Assembly (NCBI GenBank): GCA_019923605.1
Contig: JAHXGM010000007.1
Span: 1 to 33,221, forward strand
Source of the DNA: Candidatus Nealsonbacteria bacterium
Lineage (GTDB): Bacteria > Patescibacteriota > Minisyncoccia > Minisyncoccales > CSSED10-335
DNA length: 33,221 bases
Reading direction: 5' to 3'
Under the pieces are notes generated by a model. That model saw only the letters and a program-made list of their open reading frames with translations, did not search any database and had not been told where the DNA came from. The translations under genes and the position numbers were made by a program. Below are positions 10,422 to 19,475 of this stretch, in pieces. Each line of letters starts with the position of its first letter. Position 1 is the first letter of the stretch.

Positions 10422-11559
10422 ATCCTAATACTTTTAATCCGGGTAAATTTCCTTGAGTCAAAAAATAAAGCATTGCACCCCCTCCGGTTGATACATGATC
10501 CATATTATCTCTAATTTTAAATTTATGTAAGGCTAATCCAGTATCTCCACCACCTATTATTCTAAATGCGCCGAAATTACGACTTATTGCCTTCCCTATT
10601 TCTCGTGTTCCGTTTTCAAATCTAGAATCTTCAAATAACCCTAAAGGTCCCGCCCATATTATCATTTTTGCATCTTTAATAATATCAGAATACATCCTAA
10701 TAGTTTCAGGACCTATATCAAAAATATTATCATCTTTTTTAGTCGCTCCCGGAGCAATAATATGAAGACAATCATCGCAACTCGAATCTGAAACTATTAA
10801 ATCAACGGGTAAATGTATTTTAGGCGATGTAAGTTCAATTGTTTTAATGACATTAACTACATCTTCTTCTGGCCAAGATCTATTAGGAGACATGCCCTTA
10901 ACAACTAGTACATCATTAGCTAACTTACCACCCAAAAGAACATGATCAGCCATTAAAAGAAAAGAATTTATTACCTTAGCTTTTGATGATATTTTTGCTC
11001 CCCCAATTATTACTACCAATGGTCTCCGTGGATCTTTTCTTACCTTCGAGAGAACGTTAACCTCTTTTACTAGCTCTATTCCGGCACAATTAGGTAATAA
11101 TTTGGGAAGCCAAAAAACCGAAGCGTGTTCTCTGTGACAAACCGAAAAAGCCTCATTTACATAATGATCTCCCAATCTAGCTATTTTTTTTGCAAATTCA
11201 ATACTATTATTTTTTTCTCCATCGAAAAATCTCAAGTTCTCTAAGAGATAAACTTTGGGAAATGGATCATTTTTAATTTCGGCCTCAATCTCACTGTTTG
11301 GCTCTTGAATAAAAGAAACCTTCTCATTCAATAATTCTTCGATTCTGGGAAGTATTTTTTTAGAACTCTTTTTGTCCCCCAAATGAGTCATTAGAATAAT
11401 TTTTGCCCCCCAAGAAAGAAGATATTGTATAGTTGGCAAAGCTGATCTTATTCTGAAATCATCATAAATAACTCCCTTTTCATCAAAGGAAACATTAAAG
11501 TCACACCTAACTAAAACTGTTTTACCTCTAAACTTATAATTTTTAAGTAATTTCATCAT
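10411..11559 (-). CDS. pgk: Phosphoglycerate kinase
   Basis: A 382-residue glycolytic enzyme that converts 1,3-bisphosphoglycerate and ADP to 3-phosphoglycerate and ATP. Key motifs: VLVRCDFNV (substrate loop), LTHLGD in place of the usual SHLGRP, LLENLRFF, HREHASVFWLP, VVIIGGAKISSK (nucleotide-binding region), WAGPLGLFE and GGGDTGLAL near the C-terminus. Slightly short compared with about 390-400 in most bacteria. Its 5' end overlaps the TraG-like ATPase gene by 17 nt and its 3' end overlaps the DHH gene by 11 nt, so it is embedded in a dense operon. Confidence 0.96.
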   Translation of the reverse strand: MMKLLKNYKFRGKTVLVRCDFNVSFDEKGVIYDDFRIRSALPTIQYLLSWGAKIILMTHLGDKKSSKKILPRIEELLNEKVSFIQEPNSEIEAEIKNDPFPKVYLLENLRFFDGEKNNSIEFAKKIARLGDHYVNEAFSVCHREHASVFWLPKLLPNCAGIELVKEVNVLSKVRKDPRRPLVVIIGGAKISSKAKVINSFLLMADHVLLGGKLANDVLVVKGMSPNRSWPEEDVVNVIKTIELTSPKIHLPVDLIVSDSSCDDCLHIIAPGATKKDDNIFDIGPETIRMYSDIIKDAKMIIWAGPLGLFEDSRFENGTREIGKAISRNFGAFRIIGGGDTGLALHKFKIRDNMDHVSTGGGAMLYFLTQGNLPGLKVLGYED

Positions 11560-13162
11560 TCTTCTTTTTTATTTTTCCCAATGAGTTTTGTAATGCACCC
11601 CTTAGTTTATTAACATCGACGCTTTTTTTTGGCTTTTCTGCCTCTTCTTTTTTATTTTTTCTAAAAAAAGAAAAAAGAACTGGCTTCTTAGAATTGATAT
11701 TATCAAGGGATACATTTTCCTCTTTATTATCCTCTTCCTTAGATGGTTTTTGTATTTTCTTTCTGCATGATTTACAGTAAATTGGACGAGTTTCGTCCGG
11801 CTTAAAGGTTACCTTGGTCTTCTTGTCACATTTTGAACATATGGCATCGTACAGTTCTAAAGACGACTCAAGAGATGTTACGGGAAGGACTGCTCCGCCA
11901 AACCATTTCTTAATCTTCTCTTCGGTCACTTCACGAGACTTACCATATCTTTCTCTCGATGAATTTATTATCTTGTCAACATCTACTTCTTTGGGAGGTT
12001 CAAGGGGGGGTAAAGTTTCAGCTGAAAACGGTCTTCCAGAAATACCGTCTATCATTAACTTAACGTAAATATTATACTTAGGAAGATTAACTAAATCAGT
12101 GGCCATAAATTCTGGACCAAATTCTTTTTCTAAAAATTCTGCATCTTCAGGACCAACTCTAAATGAAGTAATCGTCCCCATATTTCCAAAAACGGCATCC
12201 CTTACCTCTTCTTCCATTTGAGTAATATATTGATGGCCCAATATTAAAGAAAGGCGATATTTCCTAGCTTCCGATAGAATAGTTGCAAAAGAACTTGTAG
12301 CAAAATTCTGAAACTCATCAACGTATAAATAAAAGTCTTCTCTTTTCGGCTCTGGAATATCAACTCGTGACATAGCCGCCAACTGAAGCTTGGTAATAAT
12401 AAGTGAGCCTAATAATTTAGAGTTATCCTCACCAATTCTTCCCTTGGAAATATTAGCAATAAATATTTTCCTGGTATCCATTATCTCTCTTATGTTTATT
12501 GTAGATTTAACTTGACCTACAATATTTCTAATAAGAGGATTAGAAATAAATTGACCTACCTTATTTTGAATAGCAGCGGTGGCTTCCGTCTCGTATTGTT
12601 TGCTATACATTGCGTATTCATTAAGCCAAAAGGCTTTTATAATTGGATCCTCAACTTTTTCTACTACCTTTTTCCTAAATTCAGAATCAGAGAACATTCT
12701 GTTAATACCCAAGAGAGTAGCATCAGGATATTCTAGAAGAGCCAAGATAGTATTGTTAAGAATATATTCCATTCTTGCAGACCAAACATCGGGCCAAATT
12801 TTCTTGAAAACACCCATTAATCCCGATGATATTAGATGGCGTTGATCAGGATTAATATTTTCCATAACGTTAAACGCAATCGGATACGAAAGATCAGCCG
12901 GATTGAAATATATAACATCGTTTATTCTAGTGGGAGGAACAAACCTTAAAATATTATCCGCAGCTTCTCCATGTGGATCGATAAAACCAATTCCATGACC
13001 ATTCTGAATATCTTGAATCGCCATGTTTTCCATCATGGCTGTTTTTCCTACTCCAGTTTTACCAATAGCATAAAAATGACGCCTTCGATCGTCAAGTTTT
13101 ATTCCGAACTTCCTTCTTCTATTGCGAAAAGTGGTTTCACCAAAAAAAGTAATTTCCTTCAT
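11543..13162 (-). CDS. VirD4/TraG-like type IV secretion ATPase with C-terminal zinc ribbon
   Basis: A 539-residue P-loop ATPase of the VirD4/TraG/TraD coupling-protein group, which pumps DNA or protein through type IV secretion or pilus-like machines. Walker A is AIGKTGVGKTAMM near residue 38, Walker B is FYLYVDEFQNF, and the arginine/sensor region is GHQYITQMEEEV. There is no N-terminal TM; membrane attachment is probably supplied by the upstream neighbour. After about residue 400 comes a CxxC-x(n)-CxxC zinc ribbon (CSKC and CKSC) and a lysine-rich tail. I prefer ATG at 13162; a TTG at 13168 is possible. A core chromosomal copy in a housekeeping operon is usual in these bacteria. Confidence 0.85.
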   Translation of the reverse strand: MKEITFFGETTFRNRRRKFGIKLDDRRRHFYAIGKTGVGKTAMMENMAIQDIQNGHGIGFIDPHGEAADNILRFVPPTRINDVIYFNPADLSYPIAFNVMENINPDQRHLISSGLMGVFKKIWPDVWSARMEYILNNTILALLEYPDATLLGINRMFSDSEFRKKVVEKVEDPIIKAFWLNEYAMYSKQYETEATAAIQNKVGQFISNPLIRNIVGQVKSTINIREIMDTRKIFIANISKGRIGEDNSKLLGSLIITKLQLAAMSRVDIPEPKREDFYLYVDEFQNFATSSFATILSEARKYRLSLILGHQYITQMEEEVRDAVFGNMGTITSFRVGPEDAEFLEKEFGPEFMATDLVNLPKYNIYVKLMIDGISGRPFSAETLPPLEPPKEVDVDKIINSSRERYGKSREVTEEKIKKWFGGAVLPVTSLESSLELYDAICSKCDKKTKVTFKPDETRPIYCKSCRKKIQKPSKEEDNKEENVSLDNINSKKPVLFSFFRKNKKEEAEKPKKSVDVNKLRGALQNSLGKIKKKNDEIT

Positions 13163-13170
13163 AAGCAATG

Positions 13171-14508: not shown

Positions 14509-15519
14509 TTAACTTTCTTTTATAATGTAGTGGCCGTCTAGATTCCTAGAGAAATATTTTCTGTTACTCAAATTTTGTAATATAGTGTTTTCTTTAACAA
14601 TTCTTTGCTCTGAAACTTTTTGTATAATCTCTTCCCTAGAAAGAGGATTTTTAGATTTTTGAAGAATTCTTGTTATAACTTCTTTTACTTCACCCGGTTG
14701 ATATCCCCATTCTTTTAAAGCATAAATACCCCTTCCTACCAAAACAAACCTTTCATCTTTAATCAATTCATTGTGAACAGTTTGAGGAAGCGCGCTCTTG
14801 TTAATAGCCATGGCTACTTTAGCAAAATGAAGTGGCGTGCCTTCTTTCTTTAGGACCAAGTAAGCTCTGTCCTTTATTCCCTTTGGATTAACCTCGGGCC
14901 AATTCTTTAGACCAAAAAATCCCTCATCATTTTGATGAATATGCTTTGATATTTCAAGATAGGAATTGAGTGGTTTATCAGAAAGGGGCGAAATCGTAGC
15001 ACAATGACTAATCTTTAATGGCTCGTTTTTTTCATCCAATACATTATGAATAGATCCTACTACCTCTTTAGCATAACTTATGTGTGATGGGTCTATCGCC
15101 CAAAAAGAATGAAAATCTTTTGTTTCAGAGAACCTAAAAAATGTGTCGTCTAAATTAAGAAGAAAGAAAATATGATTAACCCACTTTTCTTGACCAAGAG
15201 AAGAAAGATAAAGATCTTCTTTTTTTACTCCTCCAAAGTCTTCAATTTTTTCTCTAAATTTTTTATAAACCTTGTTATACTTCTTGGTATTATTCTTAAT
15301 CTTAGTCATGCCGTCAAATTCAATCTGTCTAACTCGCTCTCTTGTAATTTGATAATCATTGCCAATTGATTCAAGCGATTCTCTTCTTATTTTACCCGAA
15401 GAAACAAAATTAGAAGAATTATTAGGGCCATTTAAGCCGAACCTTCTTGAGATAACATCCTTTGTCCGGTCAGGAAGATTTTTAACAAGTTCAGATGAAA
15501 TTTGATTATAATCAAACAT
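14509..15519 (-). CDS. Sigma-region-4 / HARE-HTH fusion DNA-binding protein
   Basis: A 336-residue protein. The N-terminal 90 residues hold a sigma70 region-4-like helix-turn-helix: DVISRRFGLNG, then RRESLESIGNDYQITRERVRQIE, the classical -35-binding motif. No region 2 (-10 binding) is visible, so it cannot act as a complete sigma factor. At about residues 218-280 is a HARE-HTH-like winged helix (DRAYLVLKKEGTPLHFAKVA, then FVLVGRGIYALKEWG), the fold also seen in the RNA polymerase delta subunit, and a further helical segment at the C-terminus (SREEIIQKVSEQRIV). Inferred role: promoter-binding regulator or RNA polymerase accessory factor. It lies between secF (2 nt) and the secretion-ATPase pair (9 nt). 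Confidence 0.75.
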   Translation of the reverse strand: MFDYNQISSELVKNLPDRTKDVISRRFGLNGPNNSSNFVSSGKIRRESLESIGNDYQITRERVRQIEFDGMTKIKNNTKKYNKVYKKFREKIEDFGGVKKEDLYLSSLGQEKWVNHIFFLLNLDDTFFRFSETKDFHSFWAIDPSHISYAKEVVGSIHNVLDEKNEPLKISHCATISPLSDKPLNSYLEISKHIHQNDEGFFGLKNWPEVNPKGIKDRAYLVLKKEGTPLHFAKVAMAINKSALPQTVHNELIKDERFVLVGRGIYALKEWGYQPGEVKEVITRILQKSKNPLSREEIIQKVSEQRIVKENTILQNLSNRKYFSRNLDGHYIIKES

Positions 15520-15521
15520 AT

Positions 15522-16418
15522 TTATTGATTAATTTTTTTCTCTTTCAATTTTAACCAAGATACTAAAAGTGGTCCGGCTAAAAATATTGAGGAGTAAGTT
15601 CCAAGCGATATTCCAAGTATCAAGGCCATTATGAAATATTTAAGTGTTTCTCCACCCAAAAAGAATATTGCAAAAAGAACAAATAGAGTTGTTAGAGAAG
15701 TATTGATTGATCTTCCAAGAGTATTATTTATACTCTTATCCACTATCTTTTCAAAATTAGCTCTTGGGTCAAGAGCAAGATTTTCTCTTATCCTGTCAAA
15801 AATAACCACCGTATCATTTATTGTATACCCTAGAACTGTCAAAAGAGCCACTGCGATTGGAATAGTGAATTGAACTCCGTAAAGATAACCAAGCAAAGAA
15901 AAAACTCCAATTACTATTAAAACATCGTGGAAAAATCCTATCCCGGCAGCAACCACTCCGTATTGCCATGATTTTATCGATCCTCCTTCAATACCAGTAA
16001 AAGTCATCGCAATATATATTACTATGGCTAATGAAGCTAAGATTATACTAATAATTGCATTATTACGTAATTCACTTCCGATAGCTGGTCCAATTGATTC
16101 AAAATAATTTACTCTTGCTTCAGACAGCCTATCTCTTAATTCTAAATAAGTATCATCTGAGATGTCCTTCATTCTGATTACAAATGAATTATCTCCGGCT
16201 GGCTGAATGGTTAATTCTCCCAAATCAAGGCCTGACAAAGTTCTTTTTAGCTCTTCAGTAGTTGGCCTATCTGATTCGTATTCTATTTCAATTATGCTAC
16301 CTCCGGTAAACTCTATTCCAAGGTTCATGCCAAAATTAATAAGAGAAAAAATCGCTACTCCTATTAAAGTTAAAGATAGCGCGTAATATGCTTTTCTGTA
16401 TTTAGTAAATTCAATCAT
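15522..16418 (-). CDS. secF: Protein translocase subunit SecF
   Basis: A 298-residue RND-fold membrane protein that, with SecD, uses the proton-motive force to pull exported proteins out of SecYEG. It has six predicted TM segments, LGIEFTGGSIIEIEY after TM1, the periplasmic P4-like domain (50-120), GYTINDTVVIFDRIRENL in TM4-5 and NTSLTTLFVLFAIFFLGGE. I choose ATG at 16418 (MIEFTKYRK), which sits 1 nt after the secD stop; the longer frame from 16463 overlaps the secD coding end and adds only a non-family extension. Confidence 0.95.
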   Translation of the reverse strand: MIEFTKYRKAYYALSLTLIGVAIFSLINFGMNLGIEFTGGSIIEIEYESDRPTTEELKRTLSGLDLGELTIQPAGDNSFVIRMKDISDDTYLELRDRLSEARVNYFESIGPAIGSELRNNAIISIILASLAIVIYIAMTFTGIEGGSIKSWQYGVVAAGIGFFHDVLIVIGVFSLLGYLYGVQFTIPIAVALLTVLGYTINDTVVIFDRIRENLALDPRANFEKIVDKSINNTLGRSINTSLTTLFVLFAIFFLGGETLKYFIMALILGISLGTYSSIFLAGPLLVSWLKLKEKKINQ

Positions 16419-16419
16419 G

Positions 16420-18093
16420 TTATTTCCAAAGTGATCTTTTATCAGCAAGCCTGCCTCCTTCAAAAGATTTCAAAAAATATTTCGTTATTATCATAGAAGA
16501 GAACATACTGACTGAGATACCAATAATTAGGGTTAAAGCAAATCCCTTTACAAAGCTTGTTCCTATAAAAAATAGAATGAAAGCTACAATCAGGGTCGTA
16601 ACATTTCCATCTCTAATTGATGACCAAGCCATATTAAAACCACTATCAATACTATCTCGGATATTTTTACCTAAAGCTAATTCTTCTCTCATTCGGGAAA
16701 AAATTAATATATTAGCATCAATAGCCATTCCGATAGATAGAATAAACCCAGCAATACCTGATAGGGTAAGCGTTACGGGAAGAGCTTTAAATATTGATAA
16801 GACTAATAATATATAAAGGGATAAGCTAAGAACTGCCAATATCCCAGGCAATCGATAAAAAATAATCATAAATATAGCTATAGCTAAAAATCCCCATAAT
16901 CCAGCTCCTAATGATTTGGTAAGCGAATCCATTCCTAAGGCTGGGCCAACACTTTGATGCGACATTAGCTGAATTGGAACTGGTAGTGCTCCACTCCTTA
17001 AACGATTAACAATCTCTCTGGCCTTTTCAAGGCTAGTGTCTCCGGTAATAACTGCTCTGCCTCCAGTAATTGTTTCTTGAATCATTGGAGCGTAAAGATC
17101 ATCTTCTGTTATTTTTCCATCACCAGTAGTATCAATTATTGACCTACCGTCTAAAAATATTGCTAAAGGCTGACCAACATTTCTTTCAGTTATGGCTGCA
17201 AATATTTGAGCCCCTTCTGCTGTAAACTCAAGTTCAATCTGGATTCTTCCAGTCAACGGATCTACAATATAACGAGCAGTCTTTAAGTGATGACCTCCCA
17301 ACTCGGTTCTTCTCCAAGTCAAACCATCTTGAATAGATCTTTTCTCAATTAAAATATGACTTGCTTTTATTTGTCCATCGTCATTTTCGTCTTCAGTTTT
17401 TTGAATGACATGATAACCGAATTGAGTTTCAATAATTTCAGATGATATCTCATCTTTAGATAGACCAAAAACTGCTTCCTCAAATTCAGGAACCATAATT
17501 CCTCGACCAAACCAACCTAAATCTCCCCCTTGATTGCCACTTCCAGGGTCATCAGAATAGCTACGTGCTAATTCACTAAAATCTTCACCGGCTAAAACTC
17601 TTCCTAATATCTCTTCTGCCCGCACTAATGCCTCGGCGTTATGCAGTTCTGCTTCAATCATTTGCTCTTCTTCAACATATAATTCTTTAAATTCTAGAAA
17701 TGGTGTTTCTCCAATCATTCTCATGGCTTCAGCCGAATCGACAACACCAGCTAACTCTACTACTAGCCTATCTCCCTTAATTTGAACTAAAGGATCGACA
17801 ATACCAAACTGATCAATGCGATGTCCAATAAGACTTTGTAGACTATCCATTCTTTGACTCCTTTCGCTCTCTGGAACATCAGAAAGATCTGCTTGATAAA
17901 GCATTTGTGTTCCTCCTTGAAGATCAAGTCCTAATCTAAACGGTCTTTCTGTAAAGTGAGAAAATTCAAGCCCTGTTTTATTATTCAAAAAATCTATTCC
18001 ACGATTAAAAAATCCCGGATAAACAAAAGTACCTAAAAGAACTCCGAATAAAAGAAAAATAGCACTCAATAATTTATAATATCCTTTTTTCAT
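16420..18093 (-). CDS. secD: Protein translocase subunit SecD with inserted parvulin-like domain
   Basis: A 557-residue SecD. Standard parts: TM1 (8-27), GLDLQGGTQMLYQAD (55-69), VVELAGV, and the six-TM C-terminal half with GMAIDANILIFSRMREEL. Between PFLEFKELY (131-139) and WRRTELGGHHLKTAR (260-274), where normal SecD is continuous, lies an insertion with a parvulin-type prolyl isomerase core: AEEILGRVLAGEDFSELA (159-176), GGDLGWFGRGIMVPEFEEA (189-207), TQFGYHVIQK (223-232). The first parvulin strand, ASHILI (244-249), comes after this core. A second small insertion, DTTGDGKITEDD (321-332), looks like a calcium-binding EF-hand loop. Both insertions are in the extracytoplasmic P1 domain. secD heads the longest operon in the window. 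Confidence 0.93.
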   Translation of the reverse strand: MKKGYYKLLSAIFLLFGVLLGTFVYPGFFNRGIDFLNNKTGLEFSHFTERPFRLGLDLQGGTQMLYQADLSDVPESERSQRMDSLQSLIGHRIDQFGIVDPLVQIKGDRLVVELAGVVDSAEAMRMIGETPFLEFKELYVEEEQMIEAELHNAEALVRAEEILGRVLAGEDFSELARSYSDDPGSGNQGGDLGWFGRGIMVPEFEEAVFGLSKDEISSEIIETQFGYHVIQKTEDENDDGQIKASHILIEKRSIQDGLTWRRTELGGHHLKTARYIVDPLTGRIQIELEFTAEGAQIFAAITERNVGQPLAIFLDGRSIIDTTGDGKITEDDLYAPMIQETITGGRAVITGDTSLEKAREIVNRLRSGALPVPIQLMSHQSVGPALGMDSLTKSLGAGLWGFLAIAIFMIIFYRLPGILAVLSLSLYILLVLSIFKALPVTLTLSGIAGFILSIGMAIDANILIFSRMREELALGKNIRDSIDSGFNMAWSSIRDGNVTTLIVAFILFFIGTSFVKGFALTLIIGISVSMFSSMIITKYFLKSFEGGRLADKRSLWK

Positions 18094-18381: not shown

Positions 18382-19416
18382 TCAAATAGAATCCAAGCCT
18401 TGCGTCATTATCTCTTCTTCTGGAAGAATAAAATCTTGATCCATCATCATAGGAGCCATAAGCTCTTCAATGGTGATATAGTCATCTGGAATTTCTACAA
18501 CTACAGATTTCCCAAAATCATAAAAATTAATCTGAGCGTCCATAGATAATGTGCCTAACATATCATTATTAATCTCAGAAAGATCCATATCTCTTGTAAA
18601 ATCTAACCTGTAAAGGTAAAAATCTTTCTTTCCAATAAATACTTCCATTTCAATGTTTCCAAATTGATCCATCAACCTGTTAAATTCTTGGTAATCACTT
18701 TCGGTTGGCATATCAATCAAATAATCATCATCTGAAAGGCTAACTATTATTTCTACTAAATCCGGGGTGATATTCTTTATTACATCTTTATCTAAATGAA
18801 CAACAAGGTGGTATACATCAGTTCCGTTAATTTTTGTGTCAGGTAAAGCCTCTTTTACTTTCATCATATCGTTATCTTTGATCAGCTTCATAATCTTTTC
18901 AGTCACAATCTTAACTTTCCTATCCATTTCTTCAACATCATCAGTCGAAACCTCTACCTTAATCCATTGATTCCTAATCATGCTAAGATCCATCAAGGGA
19001 ATAACTGGAATAGTTGTAAGTCTATAATATACATCATTTCCAGAACCGATCGCATCACCAGTTAAGGTGAAAGATGTGCCCTCGATAGAAGCATTAAAAT
19101 CAAAATCTAGTTTACTAACATCAGCAACCATATCACTCTCTCCCGTCATATTATATGCAAATGCCACAGAAGAATCTTCGCCAACAACACCAATATTACC
19201 TTTCCATTCAAATCCATAACTATCTAGCTCACTCATTTTAGTAACCATATTACTCAAAATTCTTTCTGGAGAGGGACGAAAAATAAATGACCTTAGGGCA
19301 AAAACTGATCCACCCAATAACAAAAGAACTAATGCAATGAAAAGAACTTTATTTTTCTTGGGCTTCTCTTGGCTATACTCAGAGATTATTTTATCTTCTT
19401 CTATATTTTCACTCAT
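18382..19416 (-). CDS. Membrane-anchored protein, LolA/LppX-like fold possible
   Basis: A 344-residue protein with a charged cytoplasmic N-terminus, one TM helix (about residues 24-42) and a large acidic outer domain starting ERILSNMVTKMSELDSYGFE. Outer domains that begin with such a helix and continue as alternating beta strands (FEWKGNIGV, VAFAYNMTG, LDFDFNASI, KDFYLYRLDF) resemble the LolA/LppX lipoprotein-binding fold, but I cannot assign a family. Start ATG 19416 is preceded by a strong Shine-Dalgarno sequence (GGGGGAG, 19425-19431 on the plus strand); a TTG one codon earlier is less likely. A TATAAT box lies at 19462-19467, next to the end of the IS remnant. Confidence 0.7.
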   Translation of the reverse strand: MSENIEEDKIISEYSQEKPKKNKVLFIALVLLLLGGSVFALRSFIFRPSPERILSNMVTKMSELDSYGFEWKGNIGVVGEDSSVAFAYNMTGESDMVADVSKLDFDFNASIEGTSFTLTGDAIGSGNDVYYRLTTIPVIPLMDLSMIRNQWIKVEVSTDDVEEMDRKVKIVTEKIMKLIKDNDMMKVKEALPDTKINGTDVYHLVVHLDKDVIKNITPDLVEIIVSLSDDDYLIDMPTESDYQEFNRLMDQFGNIEMEVFIGKKDFYLYRLDFTRDMDLSEINNDMLGTLSMDAQINFYDFGKSVVVEIPDDYITIEELMAPMMMDQDFILPEEEIMTQGLDSI

Positions 19417-19475
19417 CAATTTGCTCCCCCATTTGCCAATTTAACTGGCCAACAAAGGAAAATTATATTATTAAT

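Follow-up and report, generated by a model that had tools for sequence, protein, structure and literature searches.

A parvulin domain of permuted order interrupts SecD in Candidatus Nealsonbacteria and other Patescibacteria

The secD locus

The window, by which we mean the whole stretch of DNA analyzed (33,221 nucleotides, contig JAHXGM010000007.1 of Candidatus Nealsonbacteria bacterium), carries a secD gene whose product scores 371 bits against TIGR01129, with a cut-off of 244. The P1 base, the P1 head and the six-transmembrane RND motor are present in that order according to Pfam, and Asp459, the proton-path residue of the membrane part, is kept in all 58 aligned SecDs. This canonical SecD has a complete parvulin in permuted order set into its P1 domain, with the base on one side and the head on the other. 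The features referred to below are as follows (window coordinates, strand, description and basis).

16420..18093, minus strand: SecD gene with inserted parvulin, 557 aa (ORF; TIGR01129 secD, E 7.3e-111)
17683..17844, minus strand: SecD P1 base, N-terminal part, residues 84-137 (Pfam SecD_1st)
17326..17673, minus strand: whole insertion, about residues 141-256, between P1 base and P1 head (gap versus Thermus and E. coli SecD)
17392..17670, minus strand: parvulin core, residues 142-234, comprising helices 1-3, strand 2, helix 4 and strands 3-4 (Rotamase_3; AlphaFold2)
17410..17412, minus strand: active-site His228, on strand 4 (GYH; H in 54/58)
17344..17370, minus strand: relocated parvulin strand 1, IKASHILIE, residues 242-250 (AlphaFold2 strand; rotation test)
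17356..17358, minus strand: active-site His246, on relocated strand 1 (H in 54/58)
16978..17319, minus strand: SecD P1 head, residues 259-372 (Pfam SecDF_P1_head)
16468..16974, minus strand: SecD transmembrane/motor part, residues 374-542 (Pfam SecD_SecF_C)
15522..16463, minus strand: SecF, overlapping the end of secD, without a parvulin (TIGR00966, E 3.6e-79)

Several neighboring features were recorded alongside these. Directly after secF, a single gene (14509-15519, minus strand) encodes a sigma-70 region 4 together with a HARE-HTH domain. A TraG/VirD4-like coupling-type ATPase with a treble-clef zinc finger (11543-13168, minus strand) lies in a gene run that also includes a phosphoglycerate kinase and a DHH-family protein. 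Upstream of secD is a single-transmembrane protein (18382-19419, minus strand) whose only match, to DUF6612, is sub-threshold. The SecD P1 head contains an EF-hand/dockerin-like loop, DTTGDGKITEDD (17098-17133, minus strand), which is invariant in the eight insertion-bearing SecDs of the window's order. This loop was ruled out as a parvulin-linked feature because it also occurs in SecDs that have no parvulin (L017, L018, L020 and others; L numbers are our own labels).

Sequence evidence for the permuted order

The initial annotation had proposed that a parvulin core interrupts P1, and the Pfam order SecD_1st, Rotamase_3, SecDF_P1_head bears this out; it had marked residues 150-249, within the larger insertion delimited here. 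Rotamase_3 (PF13616) matches residues 147-234 with an E value of 7.3e-28 (97.9 bits against a cut-off of 22.5). This match begins at position 28 of the 116-position profile and runs to 114; positions 1-27, where strand 1 resides, have nothing to match ahead of the core. The N-terminal strand is therefore absent from where it usually stands. The insert contains the motifs AGEDFSELA, GGDLGWFGRG and FGYHVIQK, and KASHILI comes after the last of them. A KASHILI-type strand is the usual start of a parvulin, and ASHIL is invariant in the eight relatives from the window's order.

In a phmmer search of PDB chains, the insert matched PrsA1 (6xd8) in two segments: KASHILI fell on its N-terminal residues 4-15, and the core on residues 21-95. 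The permutation signal from 6xd8 is thus direct, although the KASHILI strand alone is weak (1.7 bits). When the strand was moved to the front, a single alignment ran over 4-95 of 6xd8 and over 264-362 of SurA. For a rotation test, a profile was built from nine strictly conventional free-standing parvulins, and 60 single-core SecD inserts were scored against it in three versions: native, with the strand rotated to the front, and with the rotated tail shuffled. Rotation improved the score of every insert (60/60), by a median of 9.0 bits and by 12.4 bits for the window's own insert, while the shuffled-tail control gave a median gain of 1.1 bits and a maximum of 7.9. A first reference set of free-standing foldases gave no gain on rotation, because that set is itself permuted. 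Together with the ORF, these results uphold the earlier observation that ASHILI follows the core.

Structural model of the insert

An AlphaFold2 model was generated using 58 permuted relatives. Its mean pLDDT was 90.4; the insertion, which has no counterpart in most SecDs of the window's order, was modeled at about 93-98 over most of its length, falling to 81 in the linker that follows residue 250. DSSP assigned helices at 142-167, 172-179, 183-186 and 202-209, and strands at 191-195, 226-234 and 242-250, with short third-strand bridges near 216-222. All four strands and four helices of the parvulin fold are found in the model, the third strand being short, and the element order H-H-H-E-H-E-E-E is a complete parvulin inventory with strand 1 last. 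No substitute strand occurs in the model between the SecD strand at 133-140 and helix 142-167; the 133-140 strand is the only one ahead of the core and belongs to the SecD base (SecD_1st). The strand at 242-250 lies next in sequence to strand 4; the initial annotation had suggested a model to see whether ASHILI completes the parvulin sheet. The strand would occupy its usual place in mid-sheet, between strands 2 and 4; we infer this pairing because it and strand 4 are spaced as in a hairpin and strand 2 would otherwise lack a partner. Foldseek searches of the PDB with both models mostly gave SecDF and RND pumps; among parvulins, 8hm3 ranked highest, with a modest match (E 4.1e-7, rmsd 4.7 over 130 columns).

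A strand exchanged between two SecDs, so that each completes the parvulin of its partner molecule, would leave a sequence pattern identical to that of a circular order. Since the monomer model forms both strands with high confidence and with only a short turn between them, we regard such a swap as extremely improbable.

Active-site residues

Parvulins have two conserved active-site histidines, corresponding to H146 and H239 in Staphylococcus aureus PrsA (PMC2678132). In the 58 aligned SecDs, His246 of the relocated strand and His228 of strand 4 are both present in 54 and both absent in four, and neither ever occurs singly (uncorrected Fisher p 2.4e-6). The four double losses come from two families, and so amount to about two independent co-losses; all four inserts concerned are among those with the weakest rotation gains. 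Asp182 is kept in 54/58 and Phe204 in 50/58. By alignment, we take Asp182 to be the equivalent of Cys113 of Pin1. The pairing of the histidines is not universal beyond SecD, since in the window's class many of the permuted foldases that stand alone (L158-L175) have lost the histidine of strand 1 and kept that of strand 4.

Distribution in Patescibacteria

A survey of SecD proteins had been proposed with the initial annotation, and the insertion proved to be widespread in Patescibacteria, with the single-core order permuted in every case sampled. It is present in 8 of 100 genomes of the window's order (window genome included), all permuted, and these eight supplied the sole parvulin matches among the 100; most genomes of the order have neither a SecD insertion nor any parvulin. 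A parvulin in SecD was found in about 45 of 384 genomes in the class sample and in at least 65 of 380 in the phylum sample. A scan of genome contigs yielded six loci, only one of which, a Falkowbacteria SecD, has the insertion. The named relatives are all Patescibacteria; L003, which has two cores, is a SecD from Falkowbacteria.

The SecD insert is the sole parvulin of the window genome (559,529 bases, scored 100% complete), which also encodes an FKBP protein resembling trigger factor and a cyclophilin that has a hydrophobic segment at its N-terminus. The cyclophilin (L156, 220 aa) is probably a second extracytoplasmic prolyl isomerase.

Free-standing relatives

The relocated strand is not confined to SecD. 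It lies between the core and the C-terminal helix in 20/20 PrsA-like membrane-anchored proteins in L073-L094, and many proteins in L158-L197 share this arrangement. Because the free-standing foldases were collected with a permuted profile, the proportion of permuted forms among them is biased; their existence is unaffected. Eight Patescibacteria proteins have the normal strand order. Among these, L186 is co-linear with the permuted L087, L179 and L085 except for the position of the strand, and L187/L190 are co-linear with the permuted L180/L091, with the strand in front in the former and behind in the latter. Trees of the short parvulin core were too poorly resolved to show how many permutation events occurred, in which direction they went, or where the window's copy came from.

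SecD architectures across the phylum

Five forms of SecD were seen, which we designate A to E. Form A has no insert. Form B has a single permuted parvulin; all 60 sampled were permuted and none conventional. Form C, of about 690 aa (the two-core SecDs L003 and L095-L114), consists of a first core with its active site mostly lost, a KASHIL-type strand, an intact second core and a trailing strand whose histidine is usually lost. L097 alone retains the core 1 histidine and is one of only two two-core SecDs with a histidine on the trailing strand. Form D comprises SecD-SecF fusions of 1025-1112 aa with a plan similar to that of form C; in the fusions L115-L124 and L134, an intact conventional parvulin lies amid degenerate parvulin-like sequence inside the SecD P1. 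The middle strand and core 2 of L122 and L123 would share a site, because their histidines are lost together. Form E, of about 790-980 aa, has further parvulin-like stretches; L126-L131 and L153, SecDs of roughly this size, have insertions of 360-420 residues in which several decayed parvulin units seem to accompany one that is intact. The intact site of forms C to E is in conventional order, and these sequences are most simply read as a decayed permuted parvulin that encloses an active one of conventional order. L135 and L136 are without the enclosed unit, and in the tree their core falls with core 1 of their own family (support 87 within a branch of 95), so that they look like deletions from a two-core form.

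The existence of two-core SecDs, and of single cores such as L135 and L136 that group with core 1 of their two-core relatives, could be taken to mean that the window's insert is the remnant of a tandem pair, with KASHILI as the leftover start of a lost second domain lying outside the sheet. The initial annotation had offered a relic of two tandem domains beside a circular permutation. The histidine of a leftover strand would not be kept and lost together with that of the core, nor would such a strand stay invariant across families, and the model offers no other strand for the sheet. The free-standing foldases share the arrangement, the relocated strand being followed in them only by the usual C-terminal helix. 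With one complete domain and no second core in the window's insert, we consider the tandem remnant highly unlikely. Strong support for a circularly permuted parvulin inserted in SecD comes from the rotation test, from the modeled secondary structure, from histidines that are gained and lost as a pair, and from conservation in 60 SecDs.

Discussion

We consider it likely that the extracytoplasmic P1 arm of this SecD carries an intact, circularly permuted prolyl isomerase of the parvulin type, which would be held at the SecYEG exit and would most likely act on the emerging chain. The domain would start at helix 1 and end with the strand that is normally first; this relocated strand would form a hairpin with strand 4, fill its usual mid-sheet place and supply one of the two active-site histidines. 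SecD would keep the enzyme at the SecYEG exit. The insertion site, between P1 base and P1 head, is on the side where the chain emerges. P1 makes large movements that are coupled to the passage of protons through SecDF (PMC8669966). In the course of this swing, the parvulin would meet proline-containing stretches of the emerging chain and most likely bind and isomerize them, which would most likely help to stop the chain from sliding back or misfolding. Its role is thus most likely that of a prolyl isomerase/chaperone delivered by P1 to the emerging chain at the translocon exit; catalysis, chain binding and an effect on translocation are inferred here. The idea in the initial annotation that substrates could be isomerized as they emerge is thus plausible.

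The permuted parvulin might instead fold as described and serve as a holdase or as a structural spacer of the P1 arm, and not as an enzyme. The four SecD inserts that lost both histidines retain the domain, so that catalysis would be dispensable in some lineages. The outer permuted copy of the two-core SecDs likewise keeps its scaffold with the active site lost. Against this reading, 54/58 relatives have His228, and the count is the same for His246 and for Asp182; moreover, SecDs with a decayed outer copy also contain an active conventional one. We therefore find a holdase or spacer doubtful and retain the prolyl isomerase as the preferred reading.

On a wider view, Patescibacteria may have evolved a topologically new parvulin, with strand 1 last, and used it both in stand-alone secretion foldases and in the SecD motor. 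The order would have switched between permuted and conventional more than once, including the active conventional form nested in a decayed permuted one, and in SecD prolyl isomerization would be built into the translocation cycle. We give this broader proposal an even chance of being correct. The SecD insertion unites a secretion motor with a putative folding enzyme on a single polypeptide; the position of the enzyme would report the path of the emerging chain, so that the way in which SecDF deals with such chains, a question of long standing, becomes testable. The parvulin also offers a natural circular permutation in which close homologues, co-linear in all other respects, cleanly show the states before and after the change; such cases are uncommon. 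Profile libraries expect the normal order and report such a domain as truncated, so that it is easily missed in annotation.

Comparison with known systems

The window SecD matches known SecD/SecDF proteins (TIGR01129; Thermus SecDF 3aqp, E. coli SecD 5mg3) at full length over base, head and six-helix motor, and shares with them the proton-path Asp and a SecF next door. The solved SecDs (3aqp, 5mg3) differ in having no counterpart of the parvulin of about 115 residues between base and head. With the parvulins of PrsA, SurA and Pin1 (PF00639, PF13616), the insert shares all secondary-structure elements, the His pair, Asp182 and the Met200/Phe204 region, whereas strand 1 is first in those proteins and last in the insert, which is moreover embedded in SecD. 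The parvulin fold has four strands and four helices in the linear order beta-alpha3-beta-alpha-beta2 (PMC2678132); in the insert strand 1 follows strand 4, and we therefore class it as a permuted variant. The component parts, SecD and parvulin, are known. We found no description of a SecD-parvulin fusion or of a permuted parvulin in the open-access journal literature searched.

The closest arrangement of the strand is that of the Patescibacteria PrsA-like foldases (L073-L094, L178-L182), in which it is likewise relocated after the core. They differ from the SecD insert in being separate proteins with a SurA/PrsA-like N-terminal domain, and their homologues L186, L187 and L190 have the normal order. 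In E. coli, separate parvulin-family proteins act at the translocon, namely PpiD (PMC9643414) and SurA bound to SecYEG-SecDF (PMC9987972). They resemble the proposed role of the SecD insert in bringing a parvulin-family protein to the translocon, but they are separate partners of conventional order with no covalent link to SecD.
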